DNA of 51,678 nt from assembly GCA_025457965.1 (NCBI GenBank), contig JALOTJ010000004.1, positions 1 through 51,678 of the forward strand, written 5' to 3'. The notes under the pieces are model-generated. The model was not told the DNA's origin. It ran no database searches and saw nothing but the letters and a program-made list of their open reading frames with translations. The translations under genes and the position numbers were made by a program. This DNA is from Spirochaetota bacterium. GTDB taxonomy: Bacteria > Spirochaetota > UBA4802 > UBA5368. Every line of letters begins with the position of its first letter. The stretch's first letter is position 1. This document shows, piece after piece, positions 26,128 to 40,588 of this stretch.

Positions 26128-27114
26128 ATGAGACGCATTGTTACACTGCTCGCCGTCGTTGCTTTTATGTTCGCGGCATACGGCTGCAAGAAGGACAAGG
26201 ATGTAACCGTTGAACGCACCGGCCTCGTGAATTTTATCAGCGGCGATGTGTTCCTGGTCGGAAAGGACGGCAAAGAGGCAAAGGCCGCCGTGGGCAACGA
26301 GGTGAAGCAGGGTATGAAGATAAAGACCGTCGGCAAGAAATCCTTCGCCGACATCTATTTCGGAGAAAACGCCGTCAAGGTCCTCGGAGACACGGTCGTC
26401 GAGGTGCAGACGCTGGTGACGAATGTCACCACCAACGGCGAAGAGTCGGCCTTTTACGTGGAGAAGGGGCAGTTTTTCTCCAAGGTGGGAAAGAAGCTCG
26501 CGAAGGACGACAGGTACACGGTGAAGAGCCAGACGACCACGGCGGGTGTGCGCGGCACGGATTTTCTCATCAGCGAAGAAGAGGGCAAGGCAAATATCGC
26601 CGTGCTCGAGGGAAGCGTTGAAGTGCTGAACAACTCGCTCGCGGGCAAGGAGCCCATTGTGGTCAACGACAAGGAAGAGGTCGACGTGCTCTCCGGTCAG
26701 GACATGGTGAAGAAACAGCTTTCCGAGGACCGCATGCGGGCGCTTGCCATCCTCCTGGAGATCAAGGCCATGCGCGAGGAAATATGGAACAAGATGCGCA
26801 TGCAGCGCGAGGAGATCCGCAAGGCGGTTGAGGATCAGCGCCAGGTGAACAAGGAGATGCTGGAAAAACAGCGCGAGGGAGACAAGGCGCTGGTCGAGGA
26901 CCAGAAGCGCCGCGACCAGGAGATGATCGGAAACATCAAGGACGAGACGAAGAGCCTGGGCGAAGCGGCGAAGGGCCTTGCGAAGGACCAGATGGCCGAC
27001 GCCAAGAACGTGGACAAAGACGCGGCGAAGGATGAGGCCAACCGCCAGAAGGAAGCCATGAAGCCGACCATCGAGAAAATGAAGATCGACAAGGACCAGT
27101 TCAAGACGAAATAG
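26128..27114 (+). CDS. FecR-domain lipoprotein with charged coiled-coil C-terminus (LipL45-like architecture)
   Basis: Lipobox MFAAYGCKK; FecR-like GKKSFADIYFGENAVKVLGDTVVEVQTL...YTVKSQTTTAGVRGTDFLISEEEGKANIAVLEGSVEV; Lys/Glu-rich C-terminal helices. Confidence 0.85.
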   Translation: MRRIVTLLAVVAFMFAAYGCKKDKDVTVERTGLVNFISGDVFLVGKDGKEAKAAVGNEVKQGMKIKTVGKKSFADIYFGENAVKVLGDTVVEVQTLVTNVTTNGEESAFYVEKGQFFSKVGKKLAKDDRYTVKSQTTTAGVRGTDFLISEEEGKANIAVLEGSVEVLNNSLAGKEPIVVNDKEEVDVLSGQDMVKKQLSEDRMRALAILLEIKAMREEIWNKMRMQREEIRKAVEDQRQVNKEMLEKQREGDKALVEDQKRRDQEMIGNIKDETKSLGEAAKGLAKDQMADAKNVDKDAAKDEANRQKEAMKPTIEKMKIDKDQFKTK

Positions 27115-28315: not shown

Positions 28316-30961
<2,646 letters not shown>

Positions 30962-31168: not shown

Positions 31169-32170
31169 TTAGCGGGGAGCTTTCGGCTCCTTCCGGTTCT
31201 TTTTGAAAAATTCCTCGAAGAGTTGCCTGTCGATCTGCATGAGGCGTGAACGGATTTCGCTCAGGCTCTCGAAATTGTACTGCTGGAACTCGAAATAGTC
31301 GAGCATCCATAGGTACTTGTTGATGAGACGTGGGGCGATGTTCGAGTTCTCGATGCGTTCCCTGCCGAGGGTCTGGTAACTCTTCTCGAGGCTGTAAATC
31401 TCCCTGCGGATCCCCTCGACCTGTTGCATGTTCAGCTGGCGCTTTACGAAAAAGATGTCCTCGATGAAGCCGATGACCGGGACCCATTCGCGCGCATCGG
31501 CCGCCGAAGGCTTTTTCTCCGCCACGGCGACCAGTGTTTCCTGTATGGGTTTGGCCTTGAGAAGTCCCATTTCTATCTCGGCGGGATTTATCGAGAACGC
31601 CTCGCGGAAAAGCAGCAGGGATTTCGGGATTTCGTTCGTGTGGTAATATGCCTCCGCGAGAAGGGAGAGCAGGCGCGCGCTGGAACGGTATGAGCTGCGT
31701 GCGTATTCAAGAGTTTCCACGGTCTGGCGGTATTCGCCGAGGGTCAGAAAGCAGAGGCCCAGGTTGAGCAGCAGATCGAAGTTGTCGGCGGTGCTCTCCT
31801 GGCTCTGGAACGCCGTCTTGTAGTTCTCGGATGCGGTGAAGAAAATGTAGCGCATCGCCGACTTGTAGGCGCTGGAGTTCTGTAAATTTTTTTCCTGTGC
31901 GTAGGCCTTGAATATCTCCCACTGCGTCATCAGAAAATCGGCCGTCTGTTTGCCGCGATCGAGCCGCGCGATCTCACGCTGGCGGTTGTTCCAGAATTTC
32001 GCCGTGCGGTAGCCTTCCGCCAGCCCCGGATATTCCGGGTTTACCGAAAGCAGCTCGTCTATTTTGTTAACCGCTCCGGTAAAATCTCCCTCCTCGATGA
32101 GCTGGTGTGCGGCATTGACGCCGACCAGGAGAGGGTCGTCGGAAAATGTTAGCTGTCCGTCGCGGTCCAT
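31169..32170 (-). CDS. TPR-like hypothetical protein, third gene of the nuclease/ATPase operon
   Basis: Helical repeats NFDLLLNLGLCFLTLGEYRQTVETLEYARSSYRSSARLLSLLAEAYYHTNEIPKSLLLFREAFSINPAEIE; starts 3 nt after the upstream gene stop. Confidence 0.75.
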   Translation of the reverse strand: MDRDGQLTFSDDPLLVGVNAAHQLIEEGDFTGAVNKIDELLSVNPEYPGLAEGYRTAKFWNNRQREIARLDRGKQTADFLMTQWEIFKAYAQEKNLQNSSAYKSAMRYIFFTASENYKTAFQSQESTADNFDLLLNLGLCFLTLGEYRQTVETLEYARSSYRSSARLLSLLAEAYYHTNEIPKSLLLFREAFSINPAEIEMGLLKAKPIQETLVAVAEKKPSAADAREWVPVIGFIEDIFFVKRQLNMQQVEGIRREIYSLEKSYQTLGRERIENSNIAPRLINKYLWMLDYFEFQQYNFESLSEIRSRLMQIDRQLFEEFFKKNRKEPKAPR

Positions 32171-32173
32171 CGA

Positions 32174-34327
32174 TTATAACTCTATTCTCGCAGAACGGTC
32201 GGAAAGCGATCCGTGCTGGGTGAATACGATTATCTGCCGCTCCCGCGCCGCCTCGGCGAGCATCCGTTCCAGGTTTTCGCCCCGACGGTCGTCCATGAAG
32301 ATAAATGGGTCGTCGACGATCAGCGGTGGCGCGATCCCCCACTCGAGGATAAAATCGGCCAGTGCTATTTTTACGGCCAGCAGCAGGAGGTGCGCGAGCG
32401 CCGGGTTGAGGTCGTCGAGGCGACCACCCGCCCTGATGAATCGGATTATCGCGTCGTCGTCGATCTCGGTTATATGCCGGTTCTCGGTAATGGTGTTGAA
32501 CTTCTCCCTGGTTGAGCGGGCAAGCCTCGCGATCTGGCGGGCTTCTCTACGACCGATGACCTCTTCGAAGATGGAGCCGATCAGATTCATCGTTTTCTTT
32601 CGGGCCGTAAGTCGTTCGTAGCGTTGCTCGGCCATCGCGCGCTTCTCTCCCAATAGCCTGAGTTCGTCTTCATAATTTCCGGCGGTATCGACCTCGCCGG
32701 CCAGCTGTTCGAGTATTTTTCCCTCGGTCTGCCGCTCGCCATCAAGCCTGGCGATTTCCCTGTCGATATCCTCCATGACGGAACGAATACGAACCTCGTC
32801 GATTTCGCGGGAGCCGTACCGCGCGAGCCTGGGCAGGTTGGCCAGCACCTCCTCCCTCTTCAAGCTGGCGGCACGTGACAACTCCTGCCGTTCATCCTGC
32901 AGGGCGCTCAGGTAATCGGGGCTTTTAAGACCTTCGCGGAGCCTGAAAAGCTCAAGGAGGCCGTCCGCATATTCCCCGTATTCCTCAAAGTACTGGAGCA
33001 GAAATCCGTACACCGCTTCCAGCTTGTAGTCGAATAATTCTATCTCATTCTCTTTTAGTATCTCCTGGAGCTTTGTTTCTATTACATTTCTCGAGTCGAG
33101 GAGGGCCGCCAGTTCGCGCGGTCTTCGGGGTATTACGAGGGGCAGGTACAGTACGGCCGCCATGAGGACAAGCAGCCCCATGAGGCCGGTAAGCAGGTAC
33201 ATCCTGACCCTGACCGGGAGCGCGAGCAAGCCCCTGCTCACAAGGAAGTAAATGAGCGCAATTCCGCCGGAACCGGTAAGCGCGAGGATCCCCGTGGCCT
33301 TTTGAAAACGGGCTTTTCTCGCCGAGGTATAGTTGTCGAGCGCCACGTGTATGTCCCTGATCTCGCGGTAGGTTTCCTGGAGGCGCTTGAGGTTCTGTTT
33401 TTTCTGGTCGGTGAAGTCCCTGAACTGTGGAAACCTGCTTTCGATGGAGGCCTCACGGGCGGCTATTGTTTTTATCAGCTCATCCGAGTCCAGTAATTCC
33501 GCGCCTATGTCGTCGATTCGTTTTTCGACCGATCCAAGATTGTCGACCATCATGATGAGCTTGCCCGCGAGCATGTGCTCCACCCTGAGCGCAGCGATCC
33601 GGTTGTCGATACGGGCGATCTCGTTTTCCACCTGCCTGCGTTCCTTCAGGATTTTATCTCCCCGCGATTGCTGAATCTCGATTATGCGCGTTTTTTTCTC
33701 GATCTCCCTCAGTTCGGCTTCGGCATTGAGGAATTCATCGAGAAGCCGGTCCCCCGGCCTGCGCTCCGCCGTGGCACCATAGGCCGCACGGTAAATGCCG
33801 TAGAAGCCGGAGGCATCTTGCAGAAGCATGTACCGTACAATGTCGTAGGCAAGTGGCGGTGTTTCCGGGGCGTCGGTGGGCGATGCAATGAACGATATGG
33901 CGCTGAACGCGTCGGCGTTCAGGGAGGAGTACATGCCGCGCAGTGCGGGATCATTAACGGTCGACGTGAGCCGGTCGAAAAGCGCGCTTCGCACGGATTC
34001 CGGAGGCGTGGCGGGATCACCCCGGAACAACTCGGCCCCGGGCTTCCCGTCGCCGCCCAGTATGGAGAGGAGCCTGTCACTGTTGCGTATAAACGAATAA
34101 TTGAACGACGTGGCCAGGTGAACTTCGAGATAGAAGTTCTCCCAGATTTCTTTCTTCAGCAGGGTTATCGGGTAAGCGCTCCCCCATACGAGTTCGATCA
34201 TGGCGCGCGCGAGTACGCTCTTGCCCGAGCCGTTGCGCCCGTATACGATCGTCAGGCCCTCGTTGAATTCGAGAGTGCGGTTGTTGAAGAGCCCCGGCCT
34301 GGAGGCGACACATCGTTTTATACGCAA
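32174..34327 (-). CDS. SMC/Rad50-like AAA ATPase with two TM helices inside the coiled coil (YhaN-like)
   Basis: Walker A LTIVYGRNGSGKSVLARAMIEL; ABC signature-like region LNPALAHLLLLAVKIALAD; Walker B PPLIVDDPFIFMDDRRGENLERML; hydrophobic pair GILALTGSGGIALIYFLVSRGLLALPVRVRMYLLTGLMGLLVLMAAVLYLPLVI. Confidence 0.85.
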   Translation of the reverse strand: MRIKRCVASRPGLFNNRTLEFNEGLTIVYGRNGSGKSVLARAMIELVWGSAYPITLLKKEIWENFYLEVHLATSFNYSFIRNSDRLLSILGGDGKPGAELFRGDPATPPESVRSALFDRLTSTVNDPALRGMYSSLNADAFSAISFIASPTDAPETPPLAYDIVRYMLLQDASGFYGIYRAAYGATAERRPGDRLLDEFLNAEAELREIEKKTRIIEIQQSRGDKILKERRQVENEIARIDNRIAALRVEHMLAGKLIMMVDNLGSVEKRIDDIGAELLDSDELIKTIAAREASIESRFPQFRDFTDQKKQNLKRLQETYREIRDIHVALDNYTSARKARFQKATGILALTGSGGIALIYFLVSRGLLALPVRVRMYLLTGLMGLLVLMAAVLYLPLVIPRRPRELAALLDSRNVIETKLQEILKENEIELFDYKLEAVYGFLLQYFEEYGEYADGLLELFRLREGLKSPDYLSALQDERQELSRAASLKREEVLANLPRLARYGSREIDEVRIRSVMEDIDREIARLDGERQTEGKILEQLAGEVDTAGNYEDELRLLGEKRAMAEQRYERLTARKKTMNLIGSIFEEVIGRREARQIARLARSTREKFNTITENRHITEIDDDAIIRFIRAGGRLDDLNPALAHLLLLAVKIALADFILEWGIAPPLIVDDPFIFMDDRRGENLERMLAEAARERQIIVFTQHGSLSDRSARIEL

Positions 34328-35442
34328 TGCCAGTCCTCCGGTTTCCGGGAGCCCGGCGTTGCCGTCATCCGGAAGATAATGGAGGCAAGCACCTGGCGGT
34401 CGACATCGTCCGGCAGCTCGTTTCTTTCGATCATTTCCCTGAGACGTTCAAAAAACGCCCCGCGCAGGGAGTTTTCGCCGGTATATTCGTGGGCGAGGAG
34501 GGATAGTTTTGGTGAGGATTCATCGATAACATCAAGCCGCTCAAAGGCGCGCCCGCGTTCCAGTACGGTGTCGATGTCGAGGGGAAACCCCCGTTCCCCG
34601 GTCAGGACGACGGTCAGCGTGGTCCGCGGCGCCGCGTTTTGTTCTACAATATCCGCCAATTCGCGCGAGGATCTGACCTCGCCGCAGGGGATGGAAAGCC
34701 GTTTTACGGTGACGGTATTGACGGCGAGGCGTTTGACCTGGACTATTTCACTGTCTTCGATCATTATAGACAGAACGTACCGTTCACCTGTTTCGTCCGT
34801 CCCGACCGCTTCGGGGCTTCCAGGATACGCGCCGATGACCCTGTTGCGGGATTTGAATATTCTGAAGTTATGATTATGCCCAAGGGCATAGAAATCGAGA
34901 TTGAGGGCGCGTAGATCGTCCTTGCCGAGGCTGGTGATTTCCGCGTTCGTCGTGGCATCTTCGTTGCAGAAATCCGCATGCAACAGGGCCATGTGAAATC
35001 CGCCGGCGTCTTTTCTTCTCAGGTTCCCGAGGCCCTGCCCCGAGCCCGCCGGGAGACCGTAGACCGTGACGGTCTCGCCGCCGCGCGTTATCGAATAACC
35101 GGCGTTGTCATCATCAGAGAAAATGTGGGTAAAGCAGTCGCGTGGAATGCGTCCGGGGGCCTCCAGCAGCGAGCGGTCGCACTCGCCCGGCGAGAACAGA
35201 ACGGCCGTCCCTCGCTCACACAGCGCCGCAAGCTCCTGCGATGCCATGCCCACGACTGCGTCCATCGCCGCCGCGTTGCCGGAGTCCTGGAAAAGATCGC
35301 CGGCGATCATGAAAAGATCATGATCGGTCGCAAGCGCGCAGATTTTACGGAACGTGTTCATTCTTGCGGGGCCGGGGGCCGCGGCGGAGCGTTCGTCGAT
35401 TCCAAGGTGGAGGTCGGATGTCAGGAGGATCCTCATAATCAA
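34318..35442 (-). CDS. Mre11/SbcD/YhaO-like metallophosphoesterase (DNA repair exonuclease family)
   Basis: LLTSDLHLGIDER, LFMIAGDLFQDSG, MALLHADFCNED, DFYALGHNHNFRIF metallophosphatase motifs. Confidence 0.88.
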   Translation of the reverse strand: MIMRILLTSDLHLGIDERSAAAPGPARMNTFRKICALATDHDLFMIAGDLFQDSGNAAAMDAVVGMASQELAALCERGTAVLFSPGECDRSLLEAPGRIPRDCFTHIFSDDDNAGYSITRGGETVTVYGLPAGSGQGLGNLRRKDAGGFHMALLHADFCNEDATTNAEITSLGKDDLRALNLDFYALGHNHNFRIFKSRNRVIGAYPGSPEAVGTDETGERYVLSIMIEDSEIVQVKRLAVNTVTVKRLSIPCGEVRSSRELADIVEQNAAPRTTLTVVLTGERGFPLDIDTVLERGRAFERLDVIDESSPKLSLLAHEYTGENSLRGAFFERLREMIERNELPDDVDRQVLASIIFRMTATPGSRKPEDWHCV

Positions 35443-37365: not shown

Positions 37366-38157
37366 TTACGCGAAAAGACGCATCACCGCCTCGGTGAAGC
37401 CTTCGGGCCCTATTCCCTCCGTTATCATCGCGTCAATTTCCGCACCGACAACGCTTCCATCCGGCTTCCTTACCAGCACCGGACGCTCTACGGCATGGAG
37501 CATCGGCAGGTCGTTTTCGCTGTCGCCAATCCCGGTCGTCACGATCTCCGCTTCTCCCGCCGCCGGCCTGAATGTCTCACAAATTCTCCGAACCGCGCGG
37601 CCTTTATCGACTCCGGCGGCGCCGAAATGATAGAACCTCCCGCCGCGGGTGACACCGAGGCCGTCCTTGGCGAGGGCCATGTTCGCCGCGTGCAGATCGA
37701 TCGCGGAGCCGTCAGTCGTAATAAACGGGATGGTGAAGGAGCGCTCACGGGCAAGGGCGGCGGCGGCGCGGTCGAGCTTCGTCCGTTCGGCGATCTCCTC
37801 GATGCTCATGTCGGAGAAAAGCCGTACGCTTTTACCGGTCGCCTCCGCAAGCAGACATATGCGCGCGGCCAGGTCGTTCACTCCCATTCCGTATGCTTCC
37901 AGGCGCGGGGGTTCGCCCGGCCTTACGGGAAAAACTATCCCGCCGCCGTTCTCGCAAACAAAAGGCCCGTCGAGCCCGAGTTCGTGATGCAGGATTTCCA
38001 TTTCGGCAGCGGTTTTACTCGAAACCAGTATGAGCGGTATGCCGATTTCCCTCAGTAACCGTATACCCGGCAGTGATTGTTCGTAACCGTAATCGTTGTG
38101 GTCGAGGAGGGTGCCGTCCAGATCGGTGAACACGATGTGAAAGGCGGGCCTATTCAT
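37366..38157 (-). CDS. Mannosyl-3-phosphoglycerate phosphatase-like HAD-IIB hydrolase
   Basis: HIVFTDLDGTLLDHNDYGYEQSLPGIRLL, VSSKTAAEMEILHHELGLDGPFVCENGGGIVFP, TGIGDSENDLPMLHAVERPVLV. Confidence 0.88.
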   Translation of the reverse strand: MNRPAFHIVFTDLDGTLLDHNDYGYEQSLPGIRLLREIGIPLILVSSKTAAEMEILHHELGLDGPFVCENGGGIVFPVRPGEPPRLEAYGMGVNDLAARICLLAEATGKSVRLFSDMSIEEIAERTKLDRAAAALARERSFTIPFITTDGSAIDLHAANMALAKDGLGVTRGGRFYHFGAAGVDKGRAVRRICETFRPAAGEAEIVTTGIGDSENDLPMLHAVERPVLVRKPDGSVVGAEIDAMITEGIGPEGFTEAVMRLFA

Positions 38158-40588
38158 GGGCCTCGTCGCGTATCAGGATGAACTCCACGCGCCGGTTTCG
38201 GCGCCGGTTTTCGGGGCCGGTATTCGGTAAAAAGGCGGCTGTTTCTCCCATGCCTCTGAAGCTCAGCCGCTCGCGGGCAATGCCCCTCGTTATCAGATAG
38301 TCCATTACCGCTTTTGCCCGTTCCTCGGAAAGCCGCAGGTTGTACTCCTCTTCGCCGATATCATCGGTGTGGCCTTCGATCCGAATGCCGTAGGCCCGGT
38401 AGCGGTTCAGGATGTCCGCTACACGCCCGAGTATGGGAAAGGCCCTTTCGGTGAGGCCGGCGCTGTTGAATGCGAACTCGATATTACTGATTCGTATCTT
38501 AAGGCCCCGCTCGGTAACCATCACCAGTATGTCGATCGGGAGCCGCAACCTCCCGCTTCTGGCGTGGTTTCCGGCGATATCCACCGCATCCATCTCGATG
38601 TAGTAATCCGCGGCCGATTCGACAACCTCTCCGGTTACGCTCAGGCCGTCCCATTTTATCTCGGGGGCCGGATCGGCATGCCCGCTGAACGATTTGAACA
38701 GATCTCCGGCGCTCGAATAAATCAAAATGGACCAGCGCGCTATTCCGAAGCCGTCCGAGGCAGAAGGGTACAGTGTAAGAATGTCATTCGCCCCGTCGCC
38801 ATCGGGAGAAAAGAGCGAGGGCGAAAAACGCAGTGAAAGCTCCGGCGGGGTGCCGTCGAGAATAATCTCCTTCGGGTACGACGAAGGGGTATTACCGCTG
38901 TTGAATCGCGTGGCGAGGGTGTAATAATACGGTCCGTCAGGGAGCGCCTTTCCCGCGGCGTCGGTGCCGTTCCACTGGACGAGGCGGTCGAGCGCGGAGC
39001 CGCCTGAAAATTCGCGAACGATTTTGCGGTCGGCATTCTCGATGGTGAGTTTCCACGCCTCCAGGCCCGAGATAGATGAAAGAGAAAGCATCAACGTGAG
39101 CTCCCGGTGCAGCGCCGGCGAGAAATAACGCCGTGAGGCCGTGGCATCGGCGGTCTCGTAGCGCCGCGTGAGGGTGATCTCGCCGATCGATTTCATGGCG
39201 CTGTTCCCGGCCCTGTCCGTGCACTCTATAAAATAGGAGTAAAGCCCTTCGGGGGCCTCCCCGCCGTCGTCGGTTTTGCCGTCCCAGACGACTTTGCGTG
39301 GAACCTCGGTGCCGTTCCACCGAAAATATTTTACCGGAGTTCCGGCGGCGTCCCTGAATCCCGCCGTCCACTCATCATCCGGGGCGGTGACGACCTGCTG
39401 CCCTATTGTCAGGGTATCCTTTTTGCGGTCGTTGTTCGGCGAGAACAGCAGGTCCTCGACCGTAAGCTCCACCGATGGCGAAGTAATGTCGACGTGCACG
39501 ACCCCGGTACGCGCCGCCGAGATGTTGTCGCGCTCGTCCCATACAATAAATGAATACCGATAGCGTCCGTCGGGAACCAGTCGCCCCCTTGCGTCGGTGC
39601 CGTCCCAGAGCACCGATTCGGGCACGACGGTCGATTCCTTCCTCAACGCTATCTTTTTGATAAATGAGTATGGCGTCAGTCTCTCTACCATGTCCCGGTC
39701 GGAAAGCCGGTACTCCCGGACAACACCGCCGTCGGGGTCCAATATCTGCAGGCGCCATCCACTGATCCGGCTGGCGTCGCGGACGGTGGTCTTAAAGATA
39801 ACATAGTCCCGCTTTCCGTCGTAGTTCGGGGAGATGTGCGTCTCGGCGGGCGCGATAGTGATAAAAGGAGGGTCGCGGTCCAGCGCGCCGTAATTCATGG
39901 TGAGACCGAGGAAATGCGAAAGGCCCTCGCTTCGATGATAGCCGAGGGAGTAGTCGAGCCGGGCGTCAAATTCGCTGCGGGATATCCGCCATCCCGCGCC
40001 GAGGCTTAGCGCGTTATGCCCGTATGCGCCGGGCACGGTGCACCCCGCCCGCAGCGCGTAAGTGTCAAAAAGCCGCGATTCCAGCCCGAATTTAACCGGG
40101 TAGCCGCCGGCCTTTGCATCCGCGGCGATTTCGTTGAGAAATACGATGCTGTGGCGCGTCCCCCGATAGAAGGTGAAGTCGTACCCCGCGGAGGCCGTGT
40201 CGATGTCCGAGGTTTTTTTTTCGCTGCCCAGGGTGATGCCCGCCCTGCCGGCGAGGCCGAATGAAGGATCGAAAATACCGAACCCTTTGCCGAGGGCGAA
40301 CGAAAATCCAGTCGCATACCTGGCCCCGAGGCCGGCGCCGATGAAATGACCGGGGCCGTCCGGGGTGGTTCCGTGGAGCACGTCGAGGGCGGCCCCGAAC
40401 GAAAGGCGGTCGGTGAATTCCTTTGCCCCGCCGATCGACAGGTAGCGTGCCGTGCGCAGCGCCCCCGGTCGTGATGCCGTGGAGATCGAGTTAAACGATA
40501 TTCCGAAAGCCCCGTATGATGAGGGGAAGGCCGCGGCGAATCCGGTGTTGTTGTAGTCTCCTCCGATGCTTCCATGCCCCAGGAACAT
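38150..40588 (-). CDS. Outer-membrane-type protein with FlgD-Ig repeats and C-terminal OmpA domain (5' end separated by an in-frame TAG)
   Basis: SPNYDGKRDYVIFKT, FSPNNDRKKDTLTI and FSPDGDGANDILTLYPSA repeats; OmpA-like GIRIEGHTDDIGEEEYNLRLSEERAKAVMDYLITRGIARERLSFRGMGE. Confidence 0.85.
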   Translation of the reverse strand: MFLGHGSIGGDYNNTGFAAAFPSSYGAFGISFNSISTASRPGALRTARYLSIGGAKEFTDRLSFGAALDVLHGTTPDGPGHFIGAGLGARYATGFSFALGKGFGIFDPSFGLAGRAGITLGSEKKTSDIDTASAGYDFTFYRGTRHSIVFLNEIAADAKAGGYPVKFGLESRLFDTYALRAGCTVPGAYGHNALSLGAGWRISRSEFDARLDYSLGYHRSEGLSHFLGLTMNYGALDRDPPFITIAPAETHISPNYDGKRDYVIFKTTVRDASRISGWRLQILDPDGGVVREYRLSDRDMVERLTPYSFIKKIALRKESTVVPESVLWDGTDARGRLVPDGRYRYSFIVWDERDNISAARTGVVHVDITSPSVELTVEDLLFSPNNDRKKDTLTIGQQVVTAPDDEWTAGFRDAAGTPVKYFRWNGTEVPRKVVWDGKTDDGGEAPEGLYSYFIECTDRAGNSAMKSIGEITLTRRYETADATASRRYFSPALHRELTLMLSLSSISGLEAWKLTIENADRKIVREFSGGSALDRLVQWNGTDAAGKALPDGPYYYTLATRFNSGNTPSSYPKEIILDGTPPELSLRFSPSLFSPDGDGANDILTLYPSASDGFGIARWSILIYSSAGDLFKSFSGHADPAPEIKWDGLSVTGEVVESAADYYIEMDAVDIAGNHARSGRLRLPIDILVMVTERGLKIRISNIEFAFNSAGLTERAFPILGRVADILNRYRAYGIRIEGHTDDIGEEEYNLRLSEERAKAVMDYLITRGIARERLSFRGMGETAAFLPNTGPENRRRNRRVEFILIRDEAHE

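Follow-up and report, generated by a model that had tools for sequence, protein, structure and literature searches.

Introduction

The Mre11-Rad50 complex is regarded as a universal DNA-repair machine and is defined by its nuclease and ATPase activities. A related pair is YhaO-YhaN of the Bacillota. In Listeria monocytogenes (L189, NZ_CP030101.1), the gene for a metallophosphoesterase, YhaO, is followed by an overlapping gene for an AAA_27 ATPase of 907 amino acids (aa), YhaN, which has two hydrophobic helices (431, 452) in the middle of its coiled coil and no CxxC. YhaO keeps the motifs GNHD and GHIH, and the next gene, as read by eye, looks like yhaM. The record with this pair has 2.9 Mb and, although labelled a plasmid, is a chromosome by its size. 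Membrane hinges of the YhaN type are widespread and essentially unstudied within the literature that we searched. Our searches on YhaN/YhaO, on transmembrane (TM) Rad50 and on pseudo-nuclease Mre11 found no membrane hinge; one published classification of ATP-binding cassette (ABC) ATPases may already mention TM-containing YhaN proteins.

Here we describe a three-gene operon in which a membrane-hinged pair of this kind, with a probable pseudo-nuclease, is joined to a tetratricopeptide repeat (TPR) protein. It lies in a stretch of 51,678 nt (contig JALOTJ010000004.1, hereafter the window) from a Spirochaetota bacterium (GCA_025457965.1; GTDB lineage Spirochaetota; UBA4802; UBA5368), a metagenome-assembled genome of 3.2 Mb that is 78% complete, and we compared it with the other genomes of its order. 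All evidence is sequence-based, and TM segments were called from hydropathy and one structural model. The surveyed genomes are mostly metagenome-assembled and of varying completeness, and one of the fetched sequences (L007) contains runs of N.

Results

The three genes are arranged head to tail on the minus strand and encode a metallophosphoesterase (open reading frame 35442/35436-34318; Metallophos, 5.7e-7), an ABC ATPase with a TTG start (34327-32174; AAA_27, 1e-7) and the TPR protein (32170-31169; TPR_2, 4.5e-7). The first of them most likely starts at the ATG at 35436 rather than at the TTG at 35442. Metallophosphoesterase and ATPase genes overlap by 10 nt and the TPR gene starts 3 nt past the ATPase stop, so that these coordinates bear out the junctions given in a preliminary description of this DNA. 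Its assignment of the first two genes to the YhaNO-like pairs also holds, with AAA_27 (PF13514) scoring above the cut-off and the metallophosphoesterase gene lying immediately upstream.

The ATPase was present in 42 of the 46 genomes of the order and the TPR gene in the same 42, which means that the four genomes without the one also lack the other. This co-loss is weak evidence of a link, because a single deletion or assembly gap removes both genes. In all 41 genomes with enough contig, belonging to seven families, the three genes were found on one strand and in the same order, so that the TPR protein accompanies the pair as the preliminary description had anticipated. The gaps between them range from -22 to +14 nt and from -1 to +7 nt, with one exception of 150 nt beside an assembly N run. 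The ratios of non-synonymous to synonymous substitution were 0.07-0.21 for metallophosphoesterase and ATPase and 0.05-0.08 for the TPR protein in unsaturated or mildly saturated pairs, although many synonymous distances exceed 1 and are unreliable. All three genes are under purifying selection, and hence their complex is not in decay. Conservation is highest in the TPR protein, with a mean pairwise identity of 56% compared to 38% and 29% for the other two. Trees of the ATPase and the TPR protein mostly keep family boundaries; the metallophosphoesterase tree does so less, probably because of poor signal.

Next to this conservation of the operon stands the loss of catalytic motifs in the metallophosphoesterase. 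Its calcineurin-like domain is recognizable in the window (PF00149, above the cut-off), and we compared the motifs of 41 members from the order with those of 13 related nucleases from outside it. The Asp and His of motif I (D8 and H10 in the window) are present in 41/41 and 37/41 members, respectively, and the Asp of motif II (D47) in 37/41. Motif III, in contrast, has been dismantled: its metal-ligand Asn (GNHD) is found in none of the 41 members but in 13/13 outside nucleases, and its His in 2/41 compared to 13/13. The window reads GECD at this place. In motif V the first His persists in 19/41 members (13/13 outside) and the second in 39/41, and the window retains GHxH as GHNH. The binuclear site has thus lost the side that is built on motif III and mostly kept the other. 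The motif III His presumably corresponds to H84 of E. coli SbcCD. An H84Q version of SbcCD serves as a nuclease-deficient mutant (PMC6265447). From the motif counts, the metallophosphoesterase of the order is probably a pseudo-nuclease.

The ATPase has 717 aa. Its coiled coil splits the ABC head, with Walker A N-terminal (GRNGSGKS, residues 30-37; 34217..34240, minus strand) and Walker B C-terminal (LIVDDPF, near residues 669-675), as in Rad50 and as first read from the sequence. Rad50 structures in the PDB ranked first in both profile (best 1.4e-14) and fold searches (best 6.7e-12), the best fold match being Chaetomium Rad50. The other head motifs are degenerate. The ABC signature, which outside the order reads LSCGAEEQ or LSDGT, is LNPAL or a variant within it (LNPAL in the window), and the Gln of the Q-loop, intact in the TM-hinge outgroup, is replaced throughout the order (FIASP in the window). 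Together with the loss of GNHD in every member, this means that the label of an Mre11-type nuclease, under which the first gene had originally been described, is not supported. Walker A and B were kept in 34/41 members, including the window. The seven genomes without either (L093, L094, L095, L179-L182) still have the metallophosphoesterase gene, the coiled coil, the arm motif described below and the TPR gene, and the trees of all three proteins unite them in one monophyletic branch (support 0.99-1.0).

The coiled coil contains two hydrophobic segments at its centre, at residues 345-363 (33239..33295, minus strand; Kyte-Doolittle mean 1.80 over 19 residues) and 381-399 (33131..33187, minus strand; mean 2.49 over 19 residues). 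In the AlphaFold2 model (mean predicted local distance difference test (pLDDT) of 81, but only about 56-77 near the apex), the ascending arm is formed by helices 192-298 and 307-364, and helices 307-364 and 372-397 make a hairpin where this arm turns into the descending one. The two mid-coil helices are thus predicted by both hydropathy and modelling, and the membrane hinge without CxxC that had been proposed for this protein stands. A third hydrophobic stretch, near residue 643, was rejected as a TM helix; it corresponds to the C-lobe helix that follows the ABC signature. In the first set of 29 homologues the hydrophobic pair is found at the same place and its weaker segment always has a mean of at least 1.46; on average in the family, about 12 residues separate the two segments. 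Within the phylum, neither soluble YhaN-like ATPases (807-835 aa) nor SbcC-like ones with a CxxC (800-806 aa) have any hydrophobic segment. Since its placement is constant in homologues and it is absent from the soluble and CxxC ATPases, the hairpin does not occur by chance. The window ATPase contains a single Cys (C6) and therefore no zinc hook, and a hook hidden in the centre was also ruled out in the 29 homologues, none of which has a CxxC. Lys and Arg are richer in the hairpin flanks (family averages 5.0 and 3.2) than in the loop (1.6), which fits cytoplasmic arms.

A second conserved feature of the coiled coil is an order-specific arm motif, YxxLLQYFEE (YGFLLQYFEEY in the window, residues 440-450; 32978..33010, minus strand). 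It is 85-100% conserved in the order and absent from the three TM-hinge ATPases without a TPR neighbour (3/3), and most of its positions are kept in 5-7 of the seven Walker-less members. The motif lies roughly 45 residues away from the membrane, where it faces a break near F302. Columns Q317, Y440, L443, Q445, Y446, F447 and E448 are 88-100% conserved in the order and likewise kept in 5-7 of the seven Walker-less members, but are almost absent from the TPR-free ATPases. They sit on opposite arms, at a similar distance of about 28 to 50 residues to the membrane. In the members without an ATP site, no other part of the protein is as well kept as these columns, which therefore probably bind a partner. 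The TPR protein would be the simplest candidate, which makes the arm motif a putative docking site.

The TPR protein belongs to a family that reaches far beyond the order. Its profile matched 314 of 393 Spirochaetota genomes and 138 of 168 genera, with one copy in nearly every positive genome, and the window protein is a full-length match. Small genomes, such as one of 1,139,633 bp and a chromosome of 917 kb, also encode it. The AlphaFold2 model is all-helical (pLDDT 90), and a fold search with it returned generic TPR superhelices only. Outside the order, the TPR gene was found without a metallophosphoesterase or ATPase neighbour in 28 fetched loci (L065-L092). In 26 of these a GreA fusion of about 900 aa, with a long helical N-terminal part and a complete GreA at its end, is encoded nearby, usually immediately after the TPR gene (e.g. 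L080, L074). Thus, the TPR proteins beside a GreA fusion (e.g. G096, G113) are of the same single-copy family as that of the window, whose neighbour is the metallophosphoesterase-ATPase pair instead. Within the order the fusion is encoded elsewhere in most genomes, away from the TPR gene; in the incomplete assembly of the window itself only a short GreA-like open reading frame was found. The TPR protein had been taken for an additional third component of the pair. It does always occur with the pair in the order, but it is not the pair's accessory by origin: it is a core protein throughout the spirochaetes, and its gene normally lies beside greA. This distribution indicates that the TPR gene joined the pair, or the pair the TPR gene, once at the base of the order.

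The closest relatives of the ATPase outside the order show what such a pair looks like without the TPR gene. The best outside matches to the profiles of the order were the ATPases of three Spirochaetota genomes from unrelated families (G056, G068 and G078; loci L155, L156 and L157). These proteins have 715-728 aa and a hairpin at the same place. They differ in their intact GNHD and GHFH motifs, LSCGAEEQ signature and Q-loop Gln, and both the TPR neighbour and the arm motif are absent. Compared to Listeria YhaN, the window ATPase is shorter and carries the arm motif. With Mre11-Rad50 and SbcCD the window shares the overall fold and the gene pairing, but it has a TM hairpin instead of the zinc hook, has lost motif III and has the TPR partner.

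That the operon merely backs up canonical SbcCD was rejected: no more than 11 of 45 genomes of the order gave an SbcD-like gene (a twelfth match was weak), and with the SbcD query used none was found in the window's own genus.

Discussion

The membrane hinge and the nuclease-ATPase pairing are features of already known kinds; the hinge is not unique to the order, because Listeria YhaN and the three TPR-free spirochaete pairs have it. New are the dismantled motif III across the order, the degenerate ABC signature and Q-loop together with a branch that keeps the operon without Walker A and B, and the phylum-wide TPR family, which outside the order usually precedes a GreA fusion and whose linked ATPases are marked by the arm motif. 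On balance, we favour the explanation that the operon encodes a membrane-anchored descendant of Mre11-Rad50, of the YhaO-YhaN kind, in which the nuclease has been largely or wholly retired and which acts as a scaffold with a core TPR adaptor.

The ancestor would have been a pair with a TM hinge and a working nuclease, of the sort that a few other spirochaetes still have, and in this order the TPR gene would have moved to it from its former position next to the GreA fusion. The loss of nuclease function would date from this union, at the root of the order, and that of ATPase function would have followed later in one branch. Two antiparallel coiled-coil arms would run from the ABC head to the TM hairpin in the inner membrane, so that heads and pseudo-nuclease would hang in the cytoplasm. 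We infer that the three proteins form a physical complex, with the TPR protein probably held at the arm motif, that this complex has no nuclease activity and that its function is membrane tethering. Membrane anchor, arms, heads, pseudo-nuclease and TPR protein would all still be under selection as a scaffold.

Several observations weigh against this explanation. As the window and most other members retain Walker A and B, ATP binding is probably important for the majority. The signature of Listeria YhaN is also altered (LSQAT) although its nuclease is intact. The residues of metal site 1 are mostly kept, so some phosphoesterase activity is possible. With three Arg in its own hairpin loop, the window ATPase fits the topology argument less well, and the proposed link to the TPR protein draws on the indirect evidence of gene linkage and a candidate docking site.

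Some of these points would also suit an unlikely but serious alternative, namely that the operon encodes a still-active, membrane-bound YhaNO-type nuclease whose active site is unusual, perhaps mononuclear, and in which the TPR protein is the regulatory subunit. Besides metal site 1, the GHxH of the window and the Walker motifs of most members, the TM-hinge pairs with intact nucleases in the phylum agree with this. However, the motif III Asn is lost in every member and its replacements are diverse (E, D, K, R, P, T, I and others), a pattern that suggests relaxed constraint rather than the fixation of another ligand. Moreover, the first His of motif V is lost in 22/41 members, and one branch has lost Walker A and B as well.

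A purely positional link between TPR gene and pair, left by an ancestral rearrangement through which a core TPR gene came to follow a nuclease-ATPase operon unrelated to it, is distinctly improbable. Within one genome outside the order, e.g. G056, the TPR gene and the pair are unlinked, and the TPR protein evolves much slower than metallophosphoesterase and ATPase, as this explanation would have it. It does not sit well with the tight junctions in 41/41 genomes over seven families, with the restriction of the arm motif to TPR-linked ATPases or, more weakly, with the co-loss of ATPase and TPR gene in four genomes.

Anti-phage defence of the Lamassu or SMC-like kind is very unlikely and was rejected on gene content and inheritance: the ATPase is SMC/Rad50-like and in a small operon as in LmuABC, matches the PADLOC LmuB profile over most of its length (4.4e-14) and has solved Lamassu complexes among its fold matches, but PADLOC gave no match to the LmuA effector, to LmuC or for the metallophosphoesterase and a weak one for the TPR protein (0.0083), and the cassette, unlike patchy defence islands, is single-copy, near-universal in the order, roughly follows family boundaries as expected of vertical inheritance and lies near housekeeping genes like valS. 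A phage origin was likewise rejected, as the cassette had no match among 50,697 phage records. Vibrio LmuB, too, is believed to hydrolyse ATP poorly, owing to an altered Walker B (PMC10586767).

For the favoured scaffold, the GreA neighbourhood of the TPR gene outside the order weakly hints at transcription as the process served. A more specific version is speculative and rather unlikely: throughout the order, including the one branch without nuclease and ATPase motifs, the complex would be an inert inner-membrane scaffold that positions the core TPR adaptor and organises transcription or the chromosome at the membrane. If the retirement of the nuclease is true, this lineage would show what arms and heads of Mre11-Rad50 do without cutting, as pseudo-kinases did for kinases. 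It would also provide a first lead on a core TPR protein of the Spirochaetota, with a membrane-anchored complex in one order and a GreA fusion elsewhere.

Genomic context of the operon

Upstream of the metallophosphoesterase gene, a promoter-like sequence was found at 35527-35499 (TGGACA-17-TATGAT, 10/12), which is a consensus match only. Downstream of the TPR gene and outside the system lies the gene for valyl-tRNA synthetase (28316..30961, minus strand; tRNA-synt_1, 4.5e-149). Several families of the order have the same cluster behind their TPR gene. Elsewhere in the window, 26128-27114 encodes a 328-aa protein that has a FecR domain and whose C-terminal half is helical and charged, and 38150-40588 encodes an OmpA-family protein of 812 aa, with several FlgD_ig/CHU_C Ig-like repeats, that adjoins a HAD phosphatase gene.

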